Shown piece by piece: positions 42,620 through 54,913 of a stretch of DNA of 64,000 bases. The translations under genes were made by a program, and so were the position numbers. The stretch is taken from assembly GCF_024757985.1 (NCBI RefSeq), contig NZ_CP103289.1, positions 1,364,001 through 1,428,000 on the forward strand, in the 5' to 3' direction. The first letter of the stretch is position 1; every line of letters begins with the position of its first letter. The notes under the pieces are model-generated. The model was not told the origin of the DNA. It ran no database searches and saw nothing but the letters and a program-made list of their open reading frames with translations. Source of the DNA: Cellulomonas sp. NS3 (GTDB lineage Bacteria; Actinomycetota; Actinomycetes; Actinomycetales; Cellulomonadaceae).

Positions 42620-44005
42620 TCACCAGATCTCTCCCGCCTCCCGGAGCGCCGGGATGTAGCCGTAGGGGAGGACCCCCGTGAGCTCGGTGTGCGTGCCCTC
42701 GACCTCGAGCTGGAGCGTCGGGGCGAGCGTGCCGCCGTAGATGTCGGGGCCTCCGCCGTCGCGCGGGATCGTGTCGATGAAGCTCTCGACGAGGAAGTTC
42801 GGCATCACGAAGTGCGAGTAGTTCTGCAGCGGTGCGTCGGCCGGGTTGCCGAGCACGAGGCCGCTCTCGTTGAGCGGGCGGTAGTTGCTGCGCAGGCCGG
42901 GGCCGACGAAGCCGTAGAGTCCGTCGGGGCCGGACAGCCCCGGGGCGAACGTGAACTGGTGGCTGATCGTCCACAGGTAGTAGTCGCCGTCGTCCACGAC
43001 GAGGTGCGGACGCTCGGTCTGCTGGTTGGTGCACTCGGCCGACAGCAGCGGCGGCAGGAGCTCCCAGCTGTTCATGTCCTCTTCGTCGCCCGTGAGCCTC
43101 ATCAGCCCGATGTTGCCGGTGTAGAGGTTCGACCTGGGTGGGACGACGTGCCCGGCGGGCACCCGTCCGATCTCCTTGCGGTCGCACGTGTGGCTGCCCG
43201 CGGGTCCGGGGTTGTTGCCCTCGAACAGGATGTACACGTTGTGGTCGGTCGGGTCGCGGAACACGAACGGGTCGCGGAACGCGTAGATGATCGCGTCGGG
43301 CACCGCCTGCGACTGCTCCATGGTCTGGTACAGGTAGCCGTCGGCCTCGGCGATGATCGTGTGGTCCTCGAAGCCGGTGAACCAGACGCCCTCGTCGTCC
43401 GCGTGGATCCGGCCCTGTGCGTGCGCGAGGCGCTGCAGCGCGTCGGTCGGGTCGATCTCCGTGGGGTTGTCGCGGCCGGACGCGGTGTAGAAGGCGTCGA
43501 CCGTGCCGTCGTCGCTGACGACCGTCGAGCCCGCCCACTCACGCGAGCCGAACGACGAGCCGGCGGGGAACAGCTCGCCGCCGTACGTCCAGGTCTGCGC
43601 GTCGTCGGAGTAGAAGTACCCGATCTTCGCCTGCCAGTGGCGGTCGCCGAAGAAGATGTCCCGGGGCGCGACGAGCGAGAAGATGATGTTCCAGCCGCCG
43701 TAGGAGACGGGGTTCATGTCGAGGTCGCTCAGGGGCCAGGTGTCCCAGATCCAGACCTCGTCGGTCATGATCGGGAACTCCTGCGGTATGCGCGGGGTCG
43801 TGTTGGACGGGTCGGACGCGATCTTCAGCGCCTGCGCCCGGGTCCAGTTCGCGGTGTAGGGCGCCGCGGGGTCGTAGACGGCGTTGATCGTCACGTCCCC
43901 GCCGGAGGGTCGTGGTCGTTCGAGCGCACCTGCGGGTAGCTGTGCGGTCAGGACGAGTGCACCCGCGAGCGCCCCGTAGAGGGCGCGCCGGATCGTGCGG
44001 TTCAT
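42620..44005 (-). CDS. sacB: Levansucrase, GH68 family
   Basis: A 461-aa secreted fructosyltransferase. The signal peptide is RALYGALAGALVLTAQLPAG. The GH68 five-bladed propeller carries all three catalytic residues: the nucleophile Asp88 in EVWIWDTWPL, the transition-state stabiliser Asp245 in YAFRDPFVF, and the acid/base Glu331 in NQQTERPHLVV. It splits sucrose and transfers fructose to levan, or to water or inulin-type products; the linkage cannot be told from sequence. The ATG at 44005 has GGGAG upstream. It is a single gene with its own promoter region and no copy of the LacI operator found elsewhere in the locus. Confidence 0.95.
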   Translation of the reverse strand: MNRTIRRALYGALAGALVLTAQLPAGALERPRPSGGDVTINAVYDPAAPYTANWTRAQALKIASDPSNTTPRIPQEFPIMTDEVWIWDTWPLSDLDMNPVSYGGWNIIFSLVAPRDIFFGDRHWQAKIGYFYSDDAQTWTYGGELFPAGSSFGSREWAGSTVVSDDGTVDAFYTASGRDNPTEIDPTDALQRLAHAQGRIHADDEGVWFTGFEDHTIIAEADGYLYQTMEQSQAVPDAIIYAFRDPFVFRDPTDHNVYILFEGNNPGPAGSHTCDRKEIGRVPAGHVVPPRSNLYTGNIGLMRLTGDEEDMNSWELLPPLLSAECTNQQTERPHLVVDDGDYYLWTISHQFTFAPGLSGPDGLYGFVGPGLRSNYRPLNESGLVLGNPADAPLQNYSHFVMPNFLVESFIDTIPRDGGGPDIYGGTLAPTLQLEVEGTHTELTGVLPYGYIPALREAGEIW

Positions 44006-44380
44006 GTGGTCTCCCGTGGGATAGGACCGTGGCGGCGCGCGCAGGGACACGGGCTGCCGCCCGTGCGCGGTGCGTGTGCCGTGACGATCGCGTCCGTCGA
44101 CGACGATGTCGGCGGGCATGATGCGGATGGTCGGCGCCGGACGTCTCGGCGCGGTGGAGGCGTGGTGTCCTCGTCCCCCTGTCAGGCGGTCGCGAGCGAC
44201 CGGATGTGATCCACCTAACACCCGGCTCCGAGGTCCGACAAGGGTGTGGAGCGACTCTCATCGAGTTCTCACGCGCGGGGCGGGCCGGCTTCCGGGCGGC
44301 CTTCCGACGCTGACCTGCGCACCCGTCCTGGACCGTCGCCCAGGTGCCCTTTGGGGCATCGGCGAGGCGCTCGGGACCTC
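44006..44380. other. Long intergenic region upstream of levansucrase
   Basis: 375 bp without a credible gene. It contains a candidate levansucrase promoter at 44213-44241 and a long leader of about 200 nt. I see no GACAACGTTGTC operator in it. The part next to 44380 is the 3' flank of the aldose epimerase gene. Confidence 0.6.
44213..44241 (-). promoter_or_regulatory. Candidate levansucrase promoter
   Basis: On the minus strand TTGTCG (44241-44236) and TTAGGT (44218-44213) are separated by 17 bp. It is the best sigma-70-like match in the region and would give a leader of about 200 nt. Confidence 0.45.
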
Positions 44381-45331
44381 TTACGCCGGGATCGGCTCGA
44401 GCTCGACGGTGAAGCCGAACGAGCGCCGCTCCCCGGGCTCCAGGCGGATCACCGCGGCCTGGTCGGGCCGGTTGAACGCGTCGGTCATGACCTCGACGGG
44501 CTCGACCGCGAGCGACGCCCGCCGGTCGCGGGCGAGCGTGTCGCCCGTGAACACGTGCACGAGCCCGCGGTGCTGCCGGACGAGCAGGCGGGTGCCCGTC
44601 GCCGGGTCGTGCACGGCGGCCGGCAGAGCGGGGTCGAGCCCGCCGAAGGCCGCGTCGAGCACGACGTCGCCCAGCGGGTGCCACGACGGTGCGCTGACCT
44701 GCGCGAACGCCTCCGCACCCGGCAGCGGCAGGAGCGCGTCGTCGGTGCGCACCGCGACCGACGCGGGGAGGTCGAGGTCGAGGTTGTCGACGCGCGCCGT
44801 GCCGGGCAGCCGGAAGTAGGGGTGCCAGCCGCTCGCGTACGGTGCCGCGACGTCCCCGACGTTGTGCCCGGTGATCTCGACGGCGAGCGTGCGCGGGCCG
44901 AGCGTGTACGTCACCTCGACGACCACGGCGAACGGGTAGCCGGCGGCGGGGGAGTCGGCGAGGGCCGTGCAGCGCAGCCGCAGCGAGGCGTGCTCGCCGT
45001 CTCCTGGCGGCGGCGCGTCGGTGCGCTCGACGACCCTGAACGGCAGCGTCCGCACGAGCCCGTGGTAGACGACGCGGTCGGTGGCGCCCGGCGCGAGGTC
45101 GTGCTCGACGCCGTCGAACGTGTAGCGCGCGTCCGCGACCCGGTTGCAGAACGGCGCCATGATCCCGTTGCGGACCCCGTTCTGGTCCGCGAGCTCGGCG
45201 TCGTCCCGGTAGCCGTCGAGCAGGTCCCACGCCGCGCCGCGGTGCGGGACGAGCCACCGCAGCGGGGTCGCGCCGAGGAGCGCGACGTGCAGCTCGGCGT
45301 CGCCCGCGTGCAGGACCTCGGTCGCGCTCAT
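44381..45331 (-). CDS. galM: Aldose 1-epimerase
   Basis: A 316-aa mutarotase that interconverts alpha and beta anomers of free sugars. Family motifs are GVRNGIMAPFCNRVADARYT, DRVVYHGLVRTLPF, the His of SGWHPYFRLPG and the acidic residue near SLAVEPVEVMTDAFNRPDQA. There is no signal peptide, so it works in the cytoplasm. The ATG at 45331 overlaps the lacI-1 stop (ATGA), so regulator and epimerase are co-translated. Together with the sugar importer, this suggests processing of imported hexoses. Confidence 0.93.
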   Translation of the reverse strand: MSATEVLHAGDAELHVALLGATPLRWLVPHRGAAWDLLDGYRDDAELADQNGVRNGIMAPFCNRVADARYTFDGVEHDLAPGATDRVVYHGLVRTLPFRVVERTDAPPPGDGEHASLRLRCTALADSPAAGYPFAVVVEVTYTLGPRTLAVEITGHNVGDVAAPYASGWHPYFRLPGTARVDNLDLDLPASVAVRTDDALLPLPGAEAFAQVSAPSWHPLGDVVLDAAFGGLDPALPAAVHDPATGTRLLVRQHRGLVHVFTGDTLARDRRASLAVEPVEVMTDAFNRPDQAAVIRLEPGERRSFGFTVELEPIPA

Positions 45332-46443
45332 GCCCAGCTCCCCTTGTCGGCCGTCTCGAGCGTGCGGGTGGTGCGGTCGGCGCCCGCGGGCTCGGGCGGC
45401 GGGATCTCGCCGGAGCCGCGTGCGACGAGGCGGGTGGGCAGGACGATGCGCTCGGGGGGCAGGTCGGGGTCGGCGAGGCGGGCGAAGACGCGCTCGGCGG
45501 CGGCGCGGCCGATGTCGGCGGGGTTCTGGGCGACGACGGTGATGCCGGGGTCGACGAGGTCGGCGAGGGCGAAGTCGTCGAAGCCGACGAGGGCGACGGT
45601 GTGCTGGGCGCCGAGCTCGCGCAGGGCGCGGATGGCGCCGATGGTGACGAGGTTCTGGCTCGTGAACAGCGCGGTCGGCGGCTCGGGGGCGGTCAGCAGC
45701 GCCAGCGTCGCGGTGAGCGCGGCGTCCGCGTCGTGCAGGTCGCCGATCTCGAGCCGCGCGGCGGCCGGGACACCGGCGGCGTGGAGCGCCCGGCGGTAGC
45801 CCTCGTGCCGCTGGCGCGCCGTCGCGATCTGGCCGAGGTCCCCCAGGTACGCGATCCGGCGGTGCCCGTGCGCGAGGAGGTGGGCGGTCGCGAGCTCGGC
45901 GCCCGCGACGTTGTCGACCACGACGCTGTCGACGTCGATGCCGACCGGGGGACGGTCGACCATGACCACGGGCGTCCCGGTCTCGAGCTCGGCGCGCAGG
46001 TACGTCTGGTCGCCCGCGGTCGCGGTGATGATGAGCCCGTCGACGCGGCGGGAGGTGAACGCGGCGACGAGCGCGCGCTCGCGTCGCGGGTCCTCGTCCG
46101 TGCTCGCGGAGAAGACGGCGACGCGGCGCCCCTCCGCGACGTCCTCGACGGCCCGGTGGATCGCCGCGCAGAACGGGTTGTCGACGCTCGCGAGGAGCAG
46201 CCCGAGGCTCATGGACCGCCGGCCCGAGCGGCGCAGGTTGCCCGCGATGAGGTCCGGCTGGAAGCTCAGCGCCTCGGCGGCGCGCGCGACGCGCTCGGCC
46301 ATCGCGGCGGAGACGCCGGGCTCGCCGTTGACGACGCGCGAGACGGTCTTGATGCCCACGCCGGCCAGCGCGGCGACGTCCTTCATCGTGGCTCGTGGGC
46401 GGTGCGCGACCGGACCGCTCGCTCTCCCGGACGTCCGTGTCAT
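45328..46443 (-). CDS. LacI-family transcriptional regulator 1
   Basis: A 371-aa repressor. The N-terminal HTH is ATMKDVAALAGVGIKTVSRV with hinge-helix region FQPDLIAGNLRRSGRRSMSL. The periplasmic-binding-protein-like effector domain follows (LLASVDNPFCAAIHRAVEDV, GLIITATAGDQTY, PTALFTSQNLVTIGAIRALR, VALVGFDDFALADLVDPGIT). The recognition helix GIKTVSRVVN is close to that of lacI-2. Their C-terminal coding DNA is identical over 272 bp. It is divergent from the ABC importer; two GACAACGTTGTC sites lie in the shared region. The probable effector is a sugar from sucrose or fructan; that is inference. Confidence 0.93.
   Translation of the reverse strand: MTRTSGRASGPVAHRPRATMKDVAALAGVGIKTVSRVVNGEPGVSAAMAERVARAAEALSFQPDLIAGNLRRSGRRSMSLGLLLASVDNPFCAAIHRAVEDVAEGRRVAVFSASTDEDPRRERALVAAFTSRRVDGLIITATAGDQTYLRAELETGTPVVMVDRPPVGIDVDSVVVDNVAGAELATAHLLAHGHRRIAYLGDLGQIATARQRHEGYRRALHAAGVPAAARLEIGDLHDADAALTATLALLTAPEPPTALFTSQNLVTIGAIRALRELGAQHTVALVGFDDFALADLVDPGITVVAQNPADIGRAAAERVFARLADPDLPPERIVLPTRLVARGSGEIPPPEPAGADRTTRTLETADKGSWA
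45401..45672. repeat. 272-bp exact repeat, copy A (within lacI-1)
   Basis: These bases are identical to 53828-54099 in the same orientation relative to the reading frame. After one mismatch the identity continues for 30 more bases. The repeat covers the C-terminal effector-domain coding sequence, while flanking regions of the two genes differ clearly. Gene conversion or recent recombination between the paralogues is the simplest explanation. Confidence 0.97.
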
Positions 46444-46583: not shown

Positions 46584-46595
46584 GACAACGTTGTC
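46584..46595. promoter_or_regulatory. LacI operator O1 (GACAACGTTGTC)
   Basis: A perfect 12-bp palindrome between lacI-1 and the ABC importer operon. On the minus strand it overlaps a TTGACA hexamer (46597-46592) that could be the -35 of lacI-1. Its centre is 79 bp from O2. Confidence 0.9.
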
Positions 46596-46626
46596 AAGTC
46601 GTGACCTCCCGAACGGGCAGATCGCC

Positions 46627-46656
46627 TTGACTCGCCTCAGAAGCGGCGGGTACAAA
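46627..46656 (+). promoter_or_regulatory. Promoter of the sugar ABC importer operon
   Basis: TTGACT (46627-46632) and TACAAA (46651-46656) are separated by 18 bp. Operator O2 begins 7 bp after the -10, covering the expected start of transcription. O1 lies upstream of the -35. Confidence 0.75.
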
Positions 46657-46662
46657 GGCCTA

Positions 46663-46674
46663 GACAACGTTGTC
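46663..46674. promoter_or_regulatory. LacI operator O2 (GACAACGTTGTC)
   Basis: A perfect 12-bp palindrome just downstream of the importer promoter, about 77 bp before the ATPase start codon. A repressor bound here would block initiation; the O1-O2 spacing would allow looping. Confidence 0.92.
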
Positions 46675-46750
46675 AGCGCCACGGCGCCGACCACAGCAGG
46701 CGAGCGGGGAGCACCCGTCGCCCTGACCGCACGGCGCCCGGGAGGCCACG

Positions 46751-48301
46751 ATGGACGACGACGCACGCGTCATCCTCGAGATGCGGCACATCACCAAGGA
46801 GTTCCCCGGCGTCCGGGCCCTCGACGACGTGACCATGCAGGTCCGCGCCGGGGACATCCACGCGATCTGCGGGGAGAACGGCGCCGGCAAGTCGACCCTC
46901 ATGAAGATCCTGTCCGGGGTGTACCCGCACGGGACCTACGGCGGCGAGGTCGTCTTCCAGGGCGAGGAGGTCGCCTTCACCGGCATCAAGTCCTCCGAGC
47001 ACGCCGGCATCGTGATCATCCACCAGGAGCTCGCGCTCATCCCCGAGCTGTCGATCGTCGAGAACATCTTCCTCGGCAACGAGATCGTCAGCCGCGGGCT
47101 CATCGACTGGGACGCGGCCCGGCGGCGCACGCTCGAGCTGCTCGCGCGGGTCGGCCTCTCGGTCGACCCGAAGACCGCGATCAAGAACCTCGGCGTCGGC
47201 CAGCAGCAGCTCGTCGAGATCGCCAAGGCGCTGTCCAAGGACGTCCGGCTGCTCATCCTCGACGAGCCCACCTCGGCGCTCAACGAGGACGACTCGGAGA
47301 ACCTGCTCGAGCTCATGCGCGGCCTCAAGGCGCGCGGCATCACGTCGATCATGATCTCCCACAAGCTCAACGAGATCGCCGCGGTCGCCGACGCCGTCAC
47401 CGTGATCCGCGACGGGCGCACCGTCGAGACCTACGAGGTCGAGGCGGGCCACGTCGACGAGGACCGCATCATCCGCGCGATGGTCGGGCGCTCGATCGAG
47501 AACCGCTACCCCGAGCACACCCCGACCATCGGGGAGACCGTGCTCGAGGTCCGCGGCTGGAACGTCGAGCACCCCGCCGTCCCCGGCCGCCTCGTCTGCA
47601 AGGACTCGGCGTTCCACGTCCGGGCCGGGGAGATCGTCGGCTTCGCCGGGCTCATGGGCGCCGGCCGCACCGAGCTCGCGCGCTCGATCTTCGGCCGCAG
47701 CTACGGCACGTACCTGTCCGGGCAGCTCCTGCTGCGCGGCACGGAGGTGCAGACGCCGACCGTCGCCGCCGCGATCCGGCAGGGCCTGGCGTACGTGCCC
47801 GAGGACCGCAAGAACCTCGGGCTCAACCTGCTCGACACGATCAAGCGCACGACGATCTCCGCGAACCTGCGGGCGATCGTCCGGCGCGGGCTGCTCGACT
47901 TCGACAAGGAGCGGGCCGTCGCCGAGCGCTACCGCAGGTCGCTGCGGATCAAGACCTCGACGGTCGACGCCGGCGTCACGACCCTGTCCGGGGGCAACCA
48001 GCAGAAGGTCGTGCTGGCCAAGTGGATGTTCCCCGACCCCGACGTCCTGATCCTCGACGAGCCCACGCGCGGCATCGACGTCGGCGCCAAGTACGAGATC
48101 TACCGGCTGGTCCAGCAGCTCGCCGACGAGGGCAAGGCCGTCGTCCTGATCTCCTCGGAGCTGCCCGAGCTCCTCGGGCTCAGCGACCGGATCTACACCA
48201 TCTGCGAGGGCCGGGTCACGGGCGTGGTCGACGCGCGCGAGGCCGACCAGGAGCAGCTCATGCGGATGATGACCACCACGTCCTCGGCGCCCGCGCGCTG
48301 A
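46751..48301 (+). CDS. mmsA: Monosaccharide ABC importer, tandem ATP-binding protein
   Basis: A 516-aa protein with two nucleotide-binding domains. The first has Walker A GENGAGKST, signature LGVGQQQLVEIAKAL and Walker B LLILDEPTSAL. The second has a degenerate Walker A region GLMGAGRTEL, signature LSGGNQQKVVLAKWM and Walker B VLILDEPTRGID. This tandem layout defines the MglA/XylG/GguA carbohydrate uptake family. The ATG at 46751 is preceded by GGAGG. It is the first gene of the importer operon, controlled by O1/O2. Confidence 0.96.
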   Translation: MDDDARVILEMRHITKEFPGVRALDDVTMQVRAGDIHAICGENGAGKSTLMKILSGVYPHGTYGGEVVFQGEEVAFTGIKSSEHAGIVIIHQELALIPELSIVENIFLGNEIVSRGLIDWDAARRRTLELLARVGLSVDPKTAIKNLGVGQQQLVEIAKALSKDVRLLILDEPTSALNEDDSENLLELMRGLKARGITSIMISHKLNEIAAVADAVTVIRDGRTVETYEVEAGHVDEDRIIRAMVGRSIENRYPEHTPTIGETVLEVRGWNVEHPAVPGRLVCKDSAFHVRAGEIVGFAGLMGAGRTELARSIFGRSYGTYLSGQLLLRGTEVQTPTVAAAIRQGLAYVPEDRKNLGLNLLDTIKRTTISANLRAIVRRGLLDFDKERAVAERYRRSLRIKTSTVDAGVTTLSGGNQQKVVLAKWMFPDPDVLILDEPTRGIDVGAKYEIYRLVQQLADEGKAVVLISSELPELLGLSDRIYTICEGRVTGVVDAREADQEQLMRMMTTTSSAPAR

Positions 48302-48323
48302 CGGCTCCAGAGACGAGAGAGCG

Positions 48324-49685
48324 ATGACGTCACTCAAGCAGGTCCTCGGCGGCGACTACCGCCAGTTCACGATGGTGTTCGCGCTGGTCGCGCTGCTCGT
48401 CGGGTTCAACATCGCGTCCGACGGGCGGATGCTCACCCCGTCCAACTTCCAGAACCTGCTCTCGGGGAACGCCTACGTGCTGATCCTCGCGATCGGGATG
48501 GTCATGGTCATCGTGATCGGCCAGATCGACCTGTCCGTCGGGTCCGTCGCGGGCGTCGTCGGGATGGTCGTCGCGCTCACGTCGCGCGACTGGGGCATCC
48601 CGTGGTGGGCCGCGACGCTGCTCGGGCTCGCCGTCGGCGTCCTGATCGGCATGTGGCACGGGTTCTGGCTCGCGAAGATCGGCATCCCCGGGTTCATCAC
48701 GACCCTCGCCGGGATGATGATCTTCCGCGGCGTCGTGATCTGGATGAGCCAGTCGATCAGCGTCCCGGTGCCCGACGAGCTGCGCGTGCTGGGCTCGGGC
48801 TACCTGCCCGAGTGGGGCCCCGCGTTCACGCAGATGAACAACTCGACCCTGCTCCTCGGCCTGCTCGGCATCGCCGCGTTCGCGTGGGGCGAGCTGCGCA
48901 AGCACCGCCGGCTCGTCGCCTCGGGCGAGGAGGAGTCGATCCCGCTGTGGCCCGTGCTGATCCGCGTCGTGCTCGTCGCCGCCGTCATCGGGTACGTCAC
49001 GTGGCTGTTCGGCAGCGGGCGCCCCGGCACGTCGTTCCCGGTGCCCGGGCTCATCCTCGTGGCGCTCGTGATCATCTACCACACCATCACGCAGCGCACG
49101 ACGTTCGGCCGCCACATCTACGCGGTCGGCGGCAACCGCGCGGCGGCGGCCCTCTCCGGGGTCAACACCAAGCGCACGTACTTCCTCGTGATGACCAACA
49201 TGTCCTTCCTCGCGGCACTCGCCGGGATCATGTTCGTCGGCCGCGCCACCTCGGCCGGCCCGTCCGACGGCACCGCGTGGGAGCTCGACGCGATCGCGGC
49301 CGTCTTCATCGGCGGCGCCGCGGTCTCGGGCGGCATCGGCACCGTGCTCGCGTCGATGGTCGGGGGCCTGGTCATGGCGGTCCTCAACAGCGGCCTCATG
49401 CTCATGGGCGTCGGGGCCGACCGCACGCAGGTCATCAAGGGTCTCGTGCTCCTCGCCGCCGTCGCGTTCGACGTCTACAACAAGGAGCAGGGCCGCCCGT
49501 CCATCACGGGCCTGCTGTTCGGGCGCAAGAGCGTGCCCGGGCCGTCGCTGCCCGAGGCGCCGAGCAGCCCGGCCGGGCCCGCCGACGTCGGGCCGGTCAT
49601 GCCGGACCTCGGCACGGTCGAGCCACCGGCCGAGACGGCCCCCGCAGCCGCCCCGGCCCGGACCCGCTCTCGCGGGCCCGCCTGA
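48324..49685 (+). CDS. mmsB: Monosaccharide ABC importer, permease
   Basis: A 453-aa integral membrane protein with about ten or more hydrophobic segments, longer than MglC and like GguB/XylH permeases. Conserved segments are VLILAIGMVMVIVIGQIDLS, VGSVAGVVGMVVALT, GFITTLAGMMIFRGVVIWMS, YAVGGNRAAAALSGVNTKRT and DAIAAVFIGGAAVSGGIGTV. A 45-residue Pro/Ala-rich cytoplasmic tail ends the protein. It starts 22 bp after the ATPase gene and forms the membrane channel of the importer. Confidence 0.95.
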   Translation: MTSLKQVLGGDYRQFTMVFALVALLVGFNIASDGRMLTPSNFQNLLSGNAYVLILAIGMVMVIVIGQIDLSVGSVAGVVGMVVALTSRDWGIPWWAATLLGLAVGVLIGMWHGFWLAKIGIPGFITTLAGMMIFRGVVIWMSQSISVPVPDELRVLGSGYLPEWGPAFTQMNNSTLLLGLLGIAAFAWGELRKHRRLVASGEEESIPLWPVLIRVVLVAAVIGYVTWLFGSGRPGTSFPVPGLILVALVIIYHTITQRTTFGRHIYAVGGNRAAAALSGVNTKRTYFLVMTNMSFLAALAGIMFVGRATSAGPSDGTAWELDAIAAVFIGGAAVSGGIGTVLASMVGGLVMAVLNSGLMLMGVGADRTQVIKGLVLLAAVAFDVYNKEQGRPSITGLLFGRKSVPGPSLPEAPSSPAGPADVGPVMPDLGTVEPPAETAPAAAPARTRSRGPA

Positions 49686-49834
49686 TCCCAGCCCGCCGGT
49701 CCCGGTGCACCCGGGTCCACCGCTCCGCACACCGCACGACCACCCAGGCCGTACCCACCCCGGCCTGCGGGCCGTCACGCCCGCAGGCACCCCCGGCACC
49801 CCGACGAGGGGCGTCTCGTAGAAGGAGCTCTCCG

Positions 49835-50923
49835 ATGAAGAAGACATCCCTGAACCTGGTGGCGCTGGCCACGGCCTCCGTGCTGGTCCTCAGCGCGTGC
49901 GGCGGCGGCCGTGAGGGCACAGCCGCCGGCGGCGAGGAGGCCGCGGGCTTCGCCGAGGACGCCGTCGTCGGCGTCTCGCTGCCGTGGCTCGGCACCCAGA
50001 ACTGGAAGGAGGCCGAGACGATGTTCACCGAGCAGCTGTCCGCGGCCGGCTTCGAGCCGCTCGTCCAGGCCGCCGACAACAAGGTCACGCAGCAGCAGCA
50101 GCAGATCGAGGCGATGATCGAGCGCGGCGCCGAGGTCATCGTCGTCGGTCCCGTGGACGGCACCCAGCTCGGCAGCGTGCTCGAGCGGGCCGCCGACGCC
50201 GGCATCGCGGTGATCGGCTACGACCGCCTCATCGAGAACACCGAGGCCGTCGACGGCGTCGTCCAGTTCGGCAGCATCCGCACCGGCGAGCTCCAGGGTC
50301 AGTCGCTGCTCGACGGGCTCGCCGCCCGCGCCGGGGAGCCCCCGTACTCGATCGAGCTGTTCGGCGGCGGCCCGGCCGACCCGAACGCCCCGAACTTCTT
50401 CGAGGGCGCGATGTCGGTGCTGCAGCCGAAGATCGACGACGGCACGCTCGTCGTCGCCTCCGGCCAGACCGACTTCACGCAGGCCGCGACGCCCGACTGG
50501 GACAACGCCAAGGCGCAGGCCCGCATGGACTCGCTGCTCTCGGGCTTCTACAGCGGCTCCGAGGTCGACGGGGTCCTCTCGCCCAACGACGGCATCGCGC
50601 GCGCGATCCTCACGTCGGCGCAGCAGGCCGGCCAGCCGCTGCCCGTCGTGACGGGGCTCGACGCCGAGAACGAGTCGATCGTCTCCATCTGGCAGGACGA
50701 GCAGTGGTCGACGGTCGCGAAGCCGACGACCGACCTGGTCGGCAAGACGGTCGAGCTCATCCAGGCGCTCCAGGCGGGCGAGGACCTGCCCGACGCCGAC
50801 GAGACGGTCGACAACGGCAAGACCGAGGTGGCCGTCTACCAGCTCGACCCGGTCGTCGTGACGAAGGAGAACGCGCAGGAGGTCTTCGCGGACGACGAGG
50901 CGCGCCTCGCGCTGCTGAAGTAA
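49835..50923 (+). CDS. chvE: Monosaccharide ABC importer, lipoprotein substrate-binding protein (ChvE-like)
   Basis: A 362-aa extracytoplasmic sugar-binding lipoprotein. The lipobox is VLVLSAC near residue 20, followed by a Gly/Glu linker. The Peripla_BP_4 domain has GVSLPWLGTQNWKEAETMFT, DNKVTQQQQQIEAMIERGAE, IAVIGYDRLIENTEAVDGVV, SIELFGGGPADPNAPNFFEG and the sugar-contacting GVLSPNDGIARAILTS. This is the ChvE/MmsE type, which binds several monosaccharides. The ATG at 49835 follows AGAAGGAG. The 149-bp gap to the permease gene is unusually long for the operon but holds no obvious terminator. Confidence 0.95.
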   Translation: MKKTSLNLVALATASVLVLSACGGGREGTAAGGEEAAGFAEDAVVGVSLPWLGTQNWKEAETMFTEQLSAAGFEPLVQAADNKVTQQQQQIEAMIERGAEVIVVGPVDGTQLGSVLERAADAGIAVIGYDRLIENTEAVDGVVQFGSIRTGELQGQSLLDGLAARAGEPPYSIELFGGGPADPNAPNFFEGAMSVLQPKIDDGTLVVASGQTDFTQAATPDWDNAKAQARMDSLLSGFYSGSEVDGVLSPNDGIARAILTSAQQAGQPLPVVTGLDAENESIVSIWQDEQWSTVAKPTTDLVGKTVELIQALQAGEDLPDADETVDNGKTEVAVYQLDPVVVTKENAQEVFADDEARLALLK

Positions 50924-50939
50924 CGCGCACCCCGGTCGA

Positions 50940-50974
50940 CGAGCCCCGCCCCCTCCCGTTGGGGGCGGGGCTCG
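50940..50974 (+). terminator. Strong terminator after the importer operon
   Basis: A perfect 14-bp stem (50940-50953 with 50961-50974) with a 7-nt loop lies 17 nt after the binding-protein stop and upstream of the levanase promoter, separating the two transcription units. Confidence 0.92.
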
Positions 50975-50995
50975 TCTGCGTGCCCGCGCGTCGCT

Positions 50996-51024
50996 TTGAC
51001 AACGTTGTCCGACCGATCGAGAAT
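50996..51024 (+). promoter_or_regulatory. Levanase promoter
   Basis: A perfect -35 TTGACA (50996-51001) and GAGAAT (51019-51024) are separated by 17 bp. Operator O3 overlaps the -35 and O4 lies 7 bp after the -10, so the promoter is bracketed by repressor sites. Confidence 0.75.
50998..51009. promoter_or_regulatory. LacI operator O3 (GACAACGTTGTC)
   Basis: A perfect 12-bp palindrome overlapping the -35 element of the levanase promoter. Its centre is 37 bp from O4. Confidence 0.93.
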
Positions 51025-51030
51025 CATCGT

Positions 51031-51050
51031 GTCTGACAACGTTGTCAGAC
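51031..51050. promoter_or_regulatory. LacI operator O4, extended 20-bp palindrome
   Basis: GTCTGACAACGTTGTCAGAC is a perfect 20-bp palindrome containing the 12-bp core. It is the longest of the five sites and probably the highest-affinity one. It lies just downstream of the levanase -10, about 68 bp before the start codon. Confidence 0.93.
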
Positions 51051-51118
51051 GGCGCTGCGTCCCCGTGGTCACCACGTCGCGCGGGAGCCGCGCCCAGCCG
51101 TCTCGACGAGGAGATCTC

Positions 51119-53698
51119 ATGGGAAGACGCACGCACGCCCTGCTCTGCGGGGTGCTCGCCCTGACGTCGTCCGTACCGCTCACCGCCGCTGCGGCCGCTC
51201 CGTCCGCACCCGCGCCGGCCCTTCCCGGTGCGGTCGGCTCGGCGCTGTACGCCGCGGAGAACGACCCCTACCGGCCGCAGCTCCACTTCGCGCCGCAGCA
51301 GAACTGGGTCAACGACCCCAACGGACCCGTCTGGTACGACGGGGAGTACCACCTGTTCTTCCAGCACAACCCCGAGGGCACCCAGTGGGGCCACATGTCC
51401 TGGGGGCACGCCGTGAGCACCGACCTCGTGCACTGGGAGGAGCGGTCCGTCGCGATCCCGTGGTCCGAGCGCGAGCACATCTTCTCGGGGTCCGTGGTCG
51501 TCGACGAGCGCGCCACGAGCGGCTGGGGCACGCCCGAGGAGCCCGCGATGGTCGCGGTCTACACGAGCTGGGACCCGGTGACCGGCGTCCAGGCGCAGTC
51601 CGTCGCGTTCAGCACCGACCGCGGGGAGACGTGGACCAAGCACCCCGGCAACCCCGTGCTCGACCTCGGGTCGCGCGAGTTCCGCGACCCCCGCGTCTTC
51701 TGGTTCGCGGAGGGCGGCTACTGGGTCATGGCCGTCGCGATGGCGGTCGACCGGACGATCGCCTTCTACCGGTCCGACGACCTGCTCGCGTGGAGCCACC
51801 TGAGCGACTTCGGCCCGGCCAACGCCGTCGGCGGCGTGTGGGAGATGCCGGACCTGTTCGAGCTCCCCGTCGAGGGGCGACCGGGGGAGTCGCGCTGGGT
51901 GCTCGTCGTCAACCTCAACCCCGGCGCGATCGCGGGCGGCTCGGGCGCGCAGTACTTCCTCGGCGACTTCGACGGGACGCGGTTCACCTCCGAGACCGTC
52001 GTGACCGGCGACGAGGAACCGCCCGGCGAGGTGCTCGCCGCCTTCGACGGCGCGTACGGGGCCGGCTGGACGACGACCGGGACGGCGTTCGGCACGGCGC
52101 CGGTCACCGGGACGCTGCCCGGCCAGCAGGCGGTGACGGGCTTCCGTGGGAACGGGCTCGTCAACAGCTTCGTCGACCACGACCGTGCGCAGGGCACGCT
52201 GACGTCGCCGCCGTTCACCCTGACCGAGGACTACGTCAACGTGCTCGTGGGCGGCGGCGACCACCCGCGCCGGCCCGGGACGGGGGACGGCTCGGCGCCG
52301 GAGGGGACCGTGCTGGCCGACTTCGAGGGCGGCGGCTTCGGGGACTGGGCGGTGACGGGCGACGCGTTCGGCACCGGCCCGACGCCCGGTGACGCGCCGT
52401 GCCAGACGGGCGTGACGGGCTTCCTCGGCGGCGCGCTCGCGAGCTCGTACCGCAGCGCGACGCCCGACGACTGCGCGGTGCCGCCCGACACCGGCACCGG
52501 CACGCTGACCTCGCCCGACTTCACGGTGACCGAGCGCTACCTCAGCTTCCTCGTGGGTGGCGGCGCGCAGCCCGGGACGGCGGTGCGGCTGCTCGTCGAC
52601 GGCGCCGTGGTGCGGACCGCGTCCGGCTCGGAGAGCGGGACGCTCGACCGGGTCAGCTGGGACCTCGCCGACCTCGAGGGCCGGCGCGCCCGCATCGAGG
52701 TCCGCGACGCGGCCACCGGCGGCTGGGGGCACATCCTGGCCGACGCGTTCGCGGCCTCCGCCGCGCCGGCCCTCCCGCGGGCTGCGGAGACGACGGTGAA
52801 CCTCGTGGTCGACGGCGAGGTCGTCCGGACCGCGACAGGGCAGGACAGCGAGGCGCTCGACTGGGTCGCGTGGGACGTGCGCGAGCTCGCCGGGCGGCGG
52901 GCGCAGCTCCGGGTCGTCGACAGCGTGAGCCGCAGCTGGGGCCACGTGCTCGCGGACCAGGTGACTCTCTCGGACGTGCCGGCCCGCAGCCTGCTCGAGC
53001 GCTACCGCTGGCTCGACCACGGCACCGACTTCTACGCCGCGCTGACCTTCGAGAACGTGCCCGACGGACGCCGCCTCGCCGTCGCGTGGATGAACAACTG
53101 GGAGTACGCCTCCGCGACGCCGACCGGTACCTGGCGCGGGTCCATGACCTTCCCGCGCGAGCTCACGCTGCGGGAGGTCGGGGGCGAGCTCCGGCTGAGC
53201 CAGGCCCTCGTCCCGGAGCTCGCGGCAGCGGCGGCGTCGTCGGGTGTCGCGCCGTACCGGCTGCGGGACCGGGTGGTCCGCCAGGGCGTCACGGCCCTCC
53301 CGCGGCAGGCGCACGGCACGGTCCTCGCGGTCGACGTCGAGCTCGAGGTCGGCAGCGCCGACCGCGTCGGCCTGCACGTCCGCACCAGGGCGGGCGAGCG
53401 GACCGTCGTCGGGTACGACGTGCACCGCGAGCGGCTCTTCGTCGACCGCACCGCGTCGGGCGACGTCGACTTCCACGAGGCCTTCGCCGGCGTGCACGCG
53501 GCGCCGCTGCCCGCCCCCGAGGGTCGCGTGCGGATCCGGGTGCTCGTCGACCGGTCGTCGGTCGAGGTGCTCGGCGGCGGCGGGGAGGTCGCCCTCACCG
53601 ACCTCGTCTACCCGGCGCCCACGAGTGACGGGGTCGCGCTGTTCGCCGAGGGCGGCGAGGCGCGTGTCCGCAGCCTGACGGTGCAGCCGCTGGGCTGA
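51119..53698 (+). CDS. sacC: Secreted exo-levanase / fructan beta-fructosidase (GH32) with nested inserted module
   Basis: An 859-aa secreted enzyme. A signal peptide covers about residues 1-27. The GH32 five-bladed propeller starts at FAPQQNWVNDPNGPVWYD (nucleophile Asp66), with REFRDPRVF (Asp190 stabiliser) and GGVWEMPDLFELP (acid/base Glu242). The propeller resumes at about 628-665 (RYRWLDHGTDFYAALTFENV, AVAWMNNWEYA), and a C-terminal beta-sandwich fills about 680-859. Between residues 304 and 619 lies an insert. An N-half module (304-383), a complete similar module (397-547) and a C-half module (558-619) look like one module inserted inside another. It releases fructose from levan, inulin or sucrose. 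The ATG at 51119 has GAGGAG. O3/O4 control it. Confidence 0.94.
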   Translation: MGRRTHALLCGVLALTSSVPLTAAAAAPSAPAPALPGAVGSALYAAENDPYRPQLHFAPQQNWVNDPNGPVWYDGEYHLFFQHNPEGTQWGHMSWGHAVSTDLVHWEERSVAIPWSEREHIFSGSVVVDERATSGWGTPEEPAMVAVYTSWDPVTGVQAQSVAFSTDRGETWTKHPGNPVLDLGSREFRDPRVFWFAEGGYWVMAVAMAVDRTIAFYRSDDLLAWSHLSDFGPANAVGGVWEMPDLFELPVEGRPGESRWVLVVNLNPGAIAGGSGAQYFLGDFDGTRFTSETVVTGDEEPPGEVLAAFDGAYGAGWTTTGTAFGTAPVTGTLPGQQAVTGFRGNGLVNSFVDHDRAQGTLTSPPFTLTEDYVNVLVGGGDHPRRPGTGDGSAPEGTVLADFEGGGFGDWAVTGDAFGTGPTPGDAPCQTGVTGFLGGALASSYRSATPDDCAVPPDTGTGTLTSPDFTVTERYLSFLVGGGAQPGTAVRLLVDGAVVRTASGSESGTLDRVSWDLADLEGRRARIEVRDAATGGWGHILADAFAASAAPALPRAAETTVNLVVDGEVVRTATGQDSEALDWVAWDVRELAGRRAQLRVVDSVSRSWGHVLADQVTLSDVPARSLLERYRWLDHGTDFYAALTFENVPDGRRLAVAWMNNWEYASATPTGTWRGSMTFPRELTLREVGGELRLSQALVPELAAAAASSGVAPYRLRDRVVRQGVTALPRQAHGTVLAVDVELEVGSADRVGLHVRTRAGERTVVGYDVHRERLFVDRTASGDVDFHEAFAGVHAAPLPAPEGRVRIRVLVDRSSVEVLGGGGEVALTDLVYPAPTSDGVALFAEGGEARVRSLTVQPLG

Positions 53699-53703
53699 CG
53701 CGT

Positions 53704-53743
53704 CGCGCCGCCGCCGGGCAGCTGGGGGCCCGGCGGCGGCGCG
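53704..53743. terminator. Bidirectional terminator between levanase and lacI-2
   Basis: A perfect 16-bp stem (53704-53719 with 53728-53743) with an 8-nt loop lies 6 nt after the levanase stop and also downstream of the convergent lacI-2 gene. Confidence 0.92.
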
Positions 53744-53811
53744 TGGGCGGGTGTGCTCGGTGAGCCGGTGTCCTCGGTGCGGGCGCACCGGTCGGCGGGC
53801 GTTCTCCCGGG

Positions 53812-54870
53812 TCAGGCGCCGGGCGGGGGGATCTCGCCGGAGCCGCGTGCGACGAGGCGGGTGGGCAGGACGATGCGCTCGGGGGGCAGGTCGGGGTCGG
53901 CGAGGCGGGCGAAGACGCGCTCGGCGGCGGCGCGGCCGATGTCGGCGGGGTTCTGGGCGACGACGGTGATGCCGGGGTCGACGAGGTCGGCGAGGGCGAA
54001 GTCGTCGAAGCCGACGAGGGCGACGGTGTGCTGGGCGCCGAGCTCGCGCAGGGCGCGGATGGCGCCGATGGTGACGAGGTTCTGGCTCGTGAACAGCGCC
54101 GTCGGCGGCTCGGGGGCGGTCAGCAGCGCCCGCGTCGCGGCGTGCGCCGCCTCGACGCCCCGCAGGCCCGGGACGACGAGCCGGTCGTCCAGCGGGATGC
54201 CCGCGGCGTGCAGGGCCCGCAGGTGGCCCTCGTGCCGCTCGCGCGCGGTGACGATGACCGAGAGGTCGCCGAGGTGGGCGACGCGCCGGTGCCCGTGCCT
54301 GACGAGGTGCCCGGTCGCGGTCGCGGCGCCCTCGACGTTGTCGACCACGACGACGTCTGCCCCGAGCCCGCCGGGCGCCCGGTCGACGAGCACGACCGGC
54401 GTCCCCGTCTCGATCGCCGCGTGGAGGTGGCGGTGGTCGCTCGCGGTCGCGGTCAGGATCAGGCCGTCGACGCGGCGCGAGGTGAAGGCGGCGACGAGCG
54501 CGCGCTCCCGGCGCGGGTCCTCGTCGGTGCTCGCGGAGAAGACCGCGACGCCGCGGCTTCCGGCCACGTCCTCGACCGCGCGGTGGATCGCGGCGCAGAA
54601 CGGGTTGTCGACGCTCGCGAGGATCAGGCCCAGGCTCATCGACCGCCCCCCGGTCCGCCGGAGGTTGCCCGCCACGAGATCCGGCTGGAACCGCAGCGCG
54701 GCGGCGGCCCGGGCGACGCGCGTCGCGGTCGCGGCGGAGACGCCGGTCTCGCCGTTGGCCCAGCGCGAGACGGTCTTGATGCCGACCCCGGCGAGCGCGG
54801 CGACGTCGCGCATCGTCGCACGGGTCCGCCGGTGCAGCGTCTCCTCGGGCGGGTCTGACATCGATGTCAT
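53812..54870 (-). CDS. LacI-family transcriptional regulator 2
   Basis: A 352-aa paralogue of lacI-1. The HTH is ATMRDVAALAGVGIKTVSRW, the hinge region is FQPDLVAGNLRRTGGRSMSL, and the effector domain has LILASVDNPFCAAIHRAVED and an end identical to lacI-1 (from about PPTALFTSQNLVTIGAIRAL to GSGEIPPP). The middle of the effector domain, which usually lines the sugar pocket, differs (for example ATASDHRHLHAAIETG and VVVVDNVEGAATATGHLVRH), so the two may sense different sugars. The ATG at 54870 was chosen; ATG at 54861 is possible. Operator O5 upstream points to autoregulation. It is convergent with levanase. Confidence 0.93.
   Translation of the reverse strand: MTSMSDPPEETLHRRTRATMRDVAALAGVGIKTVSRWANGETGVSAATATRVARAAAALRFQPDLVAGNLRRTGGRSMSLGLILASVDNPFCAAIHRAVEDVAGSRGVAVFSASTDEDPRRERALVAAFTSRRVDGLILTATASDHRHLHAAIETGTPVVLVDRAPGGLGADVVVVDNVEGAATATGHLVRHGHRRVAHLGDLSVIVTARERHEGHLRALHAAGIPLDDRLVVPGLRGVEAAHAATRALLTAPEPPTALFTSQNLVTIGAIRALRELGAQHTVALVGFDDFALADLVDPGITVVAQNPADIGRAAAERVFARLADPDLPPERIVLPTRLVARGSGEIPPPGA
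53828..54099. repeat. 272-bp exact repeat, copy B (within lacI-2)
   Basis: Identical to 45401-45672 (offset 8427 bp). The match ends at a single base change at 54100 and resumes to 54130. Beyond that the genes diverge to the level of ordinary paralogues. Confidence 0.97.
54856..54869. promoter_or_regulatory. Operator-like palindrome over the lacI-2 start
   Basis: TGACATCGATGTCA is a perfect 14-bp palindrome overlapping the start codon of lacI-2. It differs from the extended operator TGACAACGTTGTCA only at two symmetrical positions, so it may be a weaker auto-regulatory site. It is also coding (ATG ACA TCG ATG TCA), so chance is possible. Confidence 0.45.
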
Positions 54871-54901
54871 GGACTGAGCGTACTGGTCTGCGGCTCGATC
54901 A

Positions 54902-54913
54902 GACAACGTTGTC
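54902..54913. promoter_or_regulatory. LacI operator O5 (GACAACGTTGTC)
   Basis: A perfect 12-bp palindrome 31 bp upstream of the lacI-2 start codon. On the minus strand the site begins CTGACA, which could double as a -35 element as at O3. It supports autoregulation of lacI-2 or cross-regulation by lacI-1. Confidence 0.92.

Follow-up and report, generated by a model that had tools for sequence, protein, structure and literature searches.

Conserved 77-80 bp operator spacing and an operator over the lacI start codon in a fructan regulon of Cellulomonas and its relatives: a probable repression loop

The window analysed here, a 64,000-nucleotide stretch of Cellulomonas sp. NS3 (contig NZ_CP103289.1, positions 1,364,001 to 1,428,000), carries an ordinary LacI-type fructan regulon made up of a levansucrase, a ChvE/GguAB-like importer, a GH32 levanase and two LacI paralogues (Table 1). 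What is of interest beyond an ordinary regulon is the 77-80 bp spacing of the operators around the importer promoter and the operator that lies over a lacI start codon. We consider it probable that the importer promoter is repressed through a loop of fixed length (77-80 bp) and that lacI is autoregulated at its start codon, as the conservation of the spacing points to a repression loop over a chance pattern. The 79-bp distance found in this window, a detail in an earlier reading made from the letters and translations alone, is the most conserved and informative feature of the system.

All five perfect copies of the palindrome GACAACGTTGTC which that sequence-only reading had placed at the promoters of the importer, the levanase and lacI-2 are present (O1 to O5, Table 1), including the one embedded in a 20-bp palindrome (O4), and the centre distances it gave, 79 bp for O1-O2 and 37 bp for O3-O4, hold. 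The exact 12-mer occurs nowhere else in the genome (4,776,279 bp), in line with the proposed compact local LacI regulon over the importer, the levanase and lacI-2. The genome-wide scan for copies at unrelated genes, which had been suggested as a check, found the exact core confined to the fructan locus, and a scatter of sites over the genome is rejected for this core. Nine copies with one mismatch lie elsewhere in the genome and a reversed control pattern gave none; with up to two mismatches allowed, the window holds ten matches, where 100 shuffled versions gave 1.8 on average and never more than 6. GACANCGNTGTC occurs 15 times in the genome, six of them within the locus, and the extended site TGACAACGTTGTC is found in two of the seven genomes of the genus, the window's own being counted. 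As an even palindrome with a central CG near a regulator and sugar genes, the operator has the features by which LacI/GalR-type operators are defined in the available text of PMC4052901. The network of five sites described earlier was incomplete, as there are at least six: O6 (TGACATCGATGTCA), 45 bp from O5, contains the genome's single GACATCGATGTC and is present at the same position in C. cellasea NBRC 3753 (genome G001, locus L001), which has its arrangement in common with the window, shares DNA with it and keeps the equivalent of the O1-O2 pair at 79 bp. At a distance of 93 bp from the levansucrase start, on its upstream side, lies GACGACGATGTC, a doubtful, weak candidate for a seventh site; the same 12 bases stand at the same gene in C. 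cellasea, which is not strong evidence because the surrounding DNA is similar throughout.

The spacing recurs in relatives of these LacI proteins. We took the best 80 of 565 matches, chosen by protein similarity alone so as to avoid selection by half-site, and allowed two mismatches in site calls; 72 of these relatives have at least one adjacent site pair, and in 58, under 23 genus or group labels, an adjacent pair 77-79 bp apart precedes lacI. Counting all pairs, adjacent or not, 59 of 76 distances fall at 77-79 bp, compared to 37 sites and two pairs (66 and 99 bp) in same-size control segments of the same loci (n=528). A search of 221 family genomes for pairs of GACANCGNTGTC, with 68-98 bp allowed, gave 28 pairs in 26 genomes from 9 of the 25 genera, and none with the reversed control. 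The distances were 77 (once), 78 (12 times), 79 (12 times), 80, 87 and 88 bp (once each), which places 26 of the 28 at 77-80 bp, and second sites cluster at 78-80 bp in the family genomes fetched for the extended half-site. Furthermore, a class sample of 384 genomes with 62-92 bp allowed yielded 71, 76, 78 (three times), 79 (four times) and 87 bp in ten genomes, eight of these at 76-79 bp, two of the 79s belonging to the window's genome and to G139, which this sample includes again after the family scan; the range 93-123 bp gave 101, 101 and 117 bp in three genomes. Both samples include genomes without such a LacI. Exact-core pairs were found only in G000 and G065 among 396 genomes of the order, and many other genera, most of them actinobacterial, likewise have the operator next to a related LacI protein. 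Two operators flanking a promoter at a constrained distance, as found here with a promoter recognised from its hexamers, are the arrangement expected of a looping repressor.

The geometry between the two sites is tightly kept. In the window the importer -10 ends 6 bp before O2, and in relatives the distance from the upstream site to the -35 is 28-30 bp in 55 of the 56 parsed pairs. The 27-nt arm lying between this site and the -35 has a median pairwise identity between loci of 30%, compared to 26% for shuffled arms, so its length is kept while its sequence is not. The lengths of the arm, of the spacer and of the stretch from the -10 to the site partly cancel one another (variance of the sum 0.50, sum of the variances 0.96), and a value as low as this arose in 0.06% of permutations (56 parsed of 59 pairs). 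A spacing of 78-80 bp is kept as well in six pairs that have no lacI start at the upstream site: those of the window, where the lacI-1 start is 141 bp from O1, and of C. cellasea, those of L009 and L015, in which the divergent gene is a GH32 gene, and the second pairs of L011, beside which no lacI was found, and of L017. The latter locus has three sites, 78 and 79 bp apart, with its lacI and importer promoters on opposite strands, in the same layout and sharing the middle site.

The second feature is the position of the inner, lacI-side site, which overlaps the in-frame lacI start codon in 64 of the 80 relatives and in 56 of the 58 with a 77-79 bp pair, start codons in unannotated DNA being predicted ones. 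Of the two genes in the window, lacI-2 has such a start-codon operator (O6) and lacI-1 is without one. Codon 2 is ACA in 62 of the 64 loci with the overlap, whereas in the remainder of the genes it makes up 88 of 1306 threonine codons (6.7%). We reject this bias as proof of selection at the DNA level, as the loci were picked by operator match and the comparison is partly circular. The possible -10 of lacI-2, 6 nt before its ATG, suggests a leaderless mRNA, and a few relatives likewise have a -10 about six nt before the start. A leaderless lacI as a general rule is rejected because 48 of the 64 relatives with a start-codon site carry a Shine-Dalgarno-like motif (GGAG, AGGA or GAGG) shortly before the start.

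The mechanism we favour, in which binding, looping, repression and effector are all predicted from the DNA, would work as follows. A conserved LacI-family repressor of fructan and fructose uptake would bind palindromes of the form TGACAnCGnTGTCA, of which two, 77-80 bp apart, would control the importer promoter, one about 30 bp upstream of the -35 and the other right after the -10. Two dimers, one per site, would close a short DNA loop round the promoter and exclude RNA polymerase, and a sugar, probably free fructose, would loosen the repressor. Sucrose or levanbiose as the inducer, both named earlier, find no support here over a monosaccharide, and the importer ATPase passes the multiple-monosaccharide model. 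A second layout would operate at the levanase, where the -35 is merged with one site and the other closely follows the -10. The lacI-side site of the importer pair lies over the lacI start codon as well in most of the relatives looked at, so that the same loop would limit synthesis of the repressor; in this lineage, with two lacI copies, O6 would have this place at lacI-2 and O1 would remain the loop partner of O2.

The strongest alternative is that the two operators act independently and without a loop, the importer-side site blocking the importer start and the lacI-side site blocking the lacI start codon, in which case 77-80 bp would be the legacy of compact divergent promoters from one ancestor. 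We regard this as possible but considerably less probable than repression by a loop. The frequent overlap with lacI starts gives each site an obvious separate use, and at 70% identity a single chained cluster takes in 47 of the 59 inter-site sequences; the loci are therefore not independent, and the permutation test above overstates the case for a loop. However, spacing and site are kept in the six pairs that have no lacI start upstream, including the two with a divergent GH32 gene, and the arm is near random in sequence yet nearly fixed in length. Moreover, the leader from the downstream site to the importer start, which serves as a control on length, varies more (standard deviation 5.2 for the 53 leaders shorter than 60 nt, 16.8 for all 56) than the distance between the sites (0.7, a value narrowed by selecting 77-79 bp).

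Like this clustering, several further observations weigh against a fixed-length loop. The importer promoter is missing from a strict sigma-70 scan, the rule of which demands a final T in the -10, so the case for this promoter rests on the like hexamers of the relatives. Seven of the 80 loci belong to genomes that had been selected beforehand for carrying the site, and 22 of the 80 relatives are without a 77-79 bp pair, eight of them having no pair at all and 14 having other distances (16, 16, 34, 67, 67, 87, 94, 101, 101, 102 four times, and 114 bp). E. coli LacI has a C-terminal tetramer helix, and inspection of the aligned C-termini revealed no extension like it in either LacI-1 or LacI-2, so that dimers would need another way to join. 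Finally, a repeat of 10.5 bp would make 78.5 bp equal to 7.5 turns, a phase unfavourable to a simple planar loop.

The last of these points depends on the helical repeat in the cell. According to PMC8501960, the effective repeat of lac loops inside E. coli cells is about 11, and PMC1762422 gives fitted in vivo repeats for lac loops of 10.95-11.6. With a repeat of about 11.0-11.6, 78.5 bp comes to about 7 turns, and it fits only with such a repeat. The rare lengths found in relatives are 67 bp (Aeromicrobium, with an 11-bp shorter arm), 101-102 bp (Streptomyces, Streptacidiphilus and an alphaproteobacterial metagenome-assembled genome, MAG) and 114 bp (Kouleothrix). Taken together, 67, 78, 101.5 and 114 bp give a phase R of 0.90-0.96 at a period of 11.3-11.5, chosen after the fact, compared to 0.76 at 11.0 and 0.40 at 10.5; adding 87 and 94 bp, which are out of phase, gives an R of 0.38-0.53 for 11.0-11.5, and the test omitted 16, 34, 71 and 117 bp. 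The agreement of the rare lengths with 78 bp for a repeat near 11.3-11.5 is thus suggestive only, and helical periodicity is not claimed as proof of looping, since the independent lengths are few and the period was chosen after the fact. A bolder proposal would be that this clade's LacI orthologues hold a promoter-enclosing loop to one length across actinobacterial families and alter it in steps of full helical turns, each about 11.3-11.5 bp (67, 78, 101-102 and 114 bp), the genomes thereby recording the helical repeat of a loop in the cell. The operator would at the same time serve as the start codon of the repressor, and the closed loop would also shut the repressor gene at its start. We hold this proposal as tentative and rather doubtful.

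A role of the upstream site in activation, in which LacI, positioned some 75 bp ahead of the start, would aid RNA polymerase and the downstream site would repress, is very unlikely. Class I activators do show a nearly fixed distance to the -35 such as that seen here, but LacI-family activators are, to our knowledge, rare, and the distance is altered by the shorter arm in Aeromicrobium and the 101-102 bp spacings in Streptomyces.

Both LacI proteins score above the cut-offs of PF00356 and of PF13377/PF00532, which places them in the LacI/GalR family. They are 79-81% identical to each other, and a search with LacI-2 yields 32 matches in the genome, of which LacI-1 (81%) is the sole close one, with 38% for the one after it. 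The best-scoring named models are those of RbsR, with scores that remain far below cut-off (at best 185.2 against 531 and 178.2 against 382). The sequence-only reading had described nearly the same recognition helix in both proteins; this is correct for K-T-V-S-R, but the two residues that follow are VV in one and WA in the other. These residues, together with the 63-88% identity of the two genes in 100-bp stretches of DNA ahead of their shared 3' tract, could speak for LacI-1 and LacI-2 being specialised for different sites or sugars, the six sites then forming two look-alike regulons. This is the least probable of the readings considered here, as the five exact sites are identical, K-T-V-S-R is common to both helices, and through the shared tract the two proteins remain alike in their C-terminal parts.

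The shared tract, 272 identical base pairs near the 3' ends of lacI-1 and lacI-2, is best read as gene conversion, and it keeps the C-terminal cores of the two proteins alike. In a four-gene comparison with C. cellasea, sites before column 720 group by gene in 109 cases and by genome in 2, and those in columns 720-1060 group by gene in 6 and by genome in 9; the lacI duplication therefore predates the split of the two species. From these counts the 3' tract looks to have been converted since that split, and as the two copies in the sister species are 93-98% identical over this zone, conversion there seems to recur. Heterodimers of LacI-1 and LacI-2 are possible, and either heterodimers or a division of labour would fit the data on the two proteins as well as the competition between them proposed earlier.

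At the levanase promoter, the reported fusion of O3 to a TTGACA was borne out: the hexamer is -35-like, with GAGAAT 17 bp further on. This fusion recurs at the GH32 promoters of L001, L005, L007, L008, L009 and L010, and the levanase site pairs of relatives are 34-38 bp apart. The (T/C)TGACA hexamers reported on the minus strand at O1 and O5 exist as well, but no good -10 follows the one at O1, and TGACA is the operator's own half-site. A GH68 levan maker and a GH32 levan cutter stand in one locus, with exact operators only at the cutter; in L005, L007, L008 and L010 one exact site lies between the GH68 and GH32 genes.

Measured against curated cut-offs for a ChvE-GguAB-type importer, GguA lies above (827/810), GguB just under (436/450) and ChvE under (311/460). 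In the six relatives whose importer-side gene was scanned, the importer is of a different type, with the binding protein first and RbsB-like, and has the same promoter layout. Two unlike importers are found with one LacI promoter layout: L009, L015 and L017 on one side and L004, L011 and L019-L024 on the other, with a GguA-first importer (67-97% identical to the window) or another ABC importer (30-38% identity). This gives the impression that one importer was exchanged for another while the promoter stayed in place. In L096 and L099, from Chloroflexi and Dormibacteraeota MAGs, two perfect sites 16 bp apart, about 120-137 bp before lacI, replace the 78-bp pair. Among plasmid records, 169 match the locus and none spans most of it; the five listed cover 17%, and where a gene is named the listed matches fall at the importer ATPase gene.

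The idea that every half-site copy marks a member of this regulon was rejected on 41 family stretches (L001-L041). A LacI relative of at least 53% identity is found in 20 of them; of the other 21, L003, with a 78-bp pair and ABC genes, and L010, with GH32 and GH68, seem related, and in the remaining 19 the search with seven window proteins gave a distant LacI at best (up to 43%) or nothing. Three of the four genomes of genus g21 (G198-G201) carry TGACAACGTTGTC five or six times and the fourth carries it once; in seven stretches from them (L032-L038) only a 43% LacI was found. Another regulator may use the same palindrome there.

Table 1. Features of the fructan locus (coordinates in the window; bp, base pairs; aa, amino acids)
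Feature	Position	Strand	Basis or remark
GH68 levansucrase, start without an exact operator	42620..44005	-	PF02435 406.9 bits
Doubtful weak site GACGACGATGTC	44099..44110	.	two mismatches; also in C. cellasea
Aldose 1-epimerase, downstream of lacI-1; start uncertain	44381..45316	-	PF01263 111.7 bits
lacI-1, LacI-family repressor, 371 aa from ATG	45328..46443	-	PF00356 55.7 bits, cut-off 27
272-bp tract in lacI-1, identical to lacI-2 tract	45401..45672	-	likely gene conversion
O1, upstream operator of importer promoter	46584..46595	.	perfect palindrome
Likely importer promoter, TTGACT-18 bp-TACAAA, enclosed by O1 and O2	46627..46656	+	read from sequence; like hexamers at same place in relatives
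O2, downstream operator of importer promoter	46663..46674	.	perfect palindrome, 6 bp past importer -10
Importer ATPase, GguA type	46751..48301	+	NF040905 827 bits, cut-off 810
Importer permease, GguB-like	48324..49685	+	NF040906 436 bits, just below cut-off 450
Sugar-binding protein, ChvE-like	49835..50923	+	PF13407 175.7 bits; ChvE model 311 bits, below cut-off 460
Levanase promoter, TTGACA-17 bp-GAGAAT	50996..51024	+	sigma-70 scan, 10/12 match
O3, fused to levanase -35 TTGACA (50996-51001)	50998..51009	.	perfect palindrome; fusion recurs at other GH32 promoters
O4, 20-bp perfect palindrome, core 51035-51046, just past levanase -10	51031..51050	.	core is a perfect copy of GACAACGTTGTC
GH32 levanase/fructanase	51119..53698	+	PF00251 and PF08244
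lacI-2, 352 aa, paralogue of lacI-1	53812..54870	-	PF00356 46 bits; 79-81% identical to lacI-1
272-bp tract in lacI-2, matching that of lacI-1	53828..54099	-	likely gene conversion
O6, TGACATCGATGTCA, degenerate, over lacI-2 start codon	54856..54869	.	same place in C. cellasea
Possible lacI-2 -10 (TACGCT), 6 nt before ATG	54877..54882	-	inferred by eye
O5, upstream of lacI-2; second half overlaps possible -35	54902..54913	.	perfect palindrome; -35 inferred by eye

The lac and gal loops of E. coli, formed by LacI and GalR, are alike in having a LacI-family repressor, palindromes that flank a promoter and a short loop, which here is a predicted one. The gal operators are about 113 bp apart and act with HU. 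Unlike in these systems, a distance of 77-80 bp recurs here across many genera, with the inner site usually over the repressor's start codon, and unlike in lac no tetramer helix was seen. In E. coli, repression by lac loops is seen for loop lengths of 65-86 bp (PMC5081198). The regulon also resembles the LacI-family regulons of Ravcheev et al. 2014 (PMC4052901) in its even palindrome with a central CG and its local control of sugar utilisation. The accessible parts of that work report that about 20% of regulated operons have more than one site, that the distances of site pairs peak at 13, 22 and 32 bp and that less than 1% of sites lie in coding regions; the layout described here falls outside these peaks and this coding-region rarity, and section 9, as far as available, makes no mention of 78 bp or of a start-codon site. 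ScrR, FruR, CscR, SuxR and BfrR serve the same sugars with the same pathway logic (PMC4052901, Table 1, available entries). Unlike such repressors, LacI-1 and LacI-2 score 136.7 and 127.4 bits with the fructose/sucrose repressor model TIGR02417, far below its NCBIfam cut-off of 389.55. No description of this operator or of the 78-bp spacing in this group was found in the open-licence literature as judged by titles and abstract starts, and the 12-mer appears there in two papers, within a CRISPR spacer and a primer, both unrelated.

What loop length and phase do to repression has mostly been learned in E. coli, on engineered lac constructs. If the loop proposed here is true, a natural clade would have kept one loop length through turnover of the sequence, replacement of the importer and change of the divergent gene, with rare length changes that look like whole turns, and loop geometry could be studied by way of evolution. 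The operator within a start codon would be a simple and testable form of autoregulation. Furthermore, the motif of two sites 77-80 bp apart is searchable and should point to the fructan regulon in plant and soil fructan users such as Cellulomonas, Agromyces, Arthrobacter and others.

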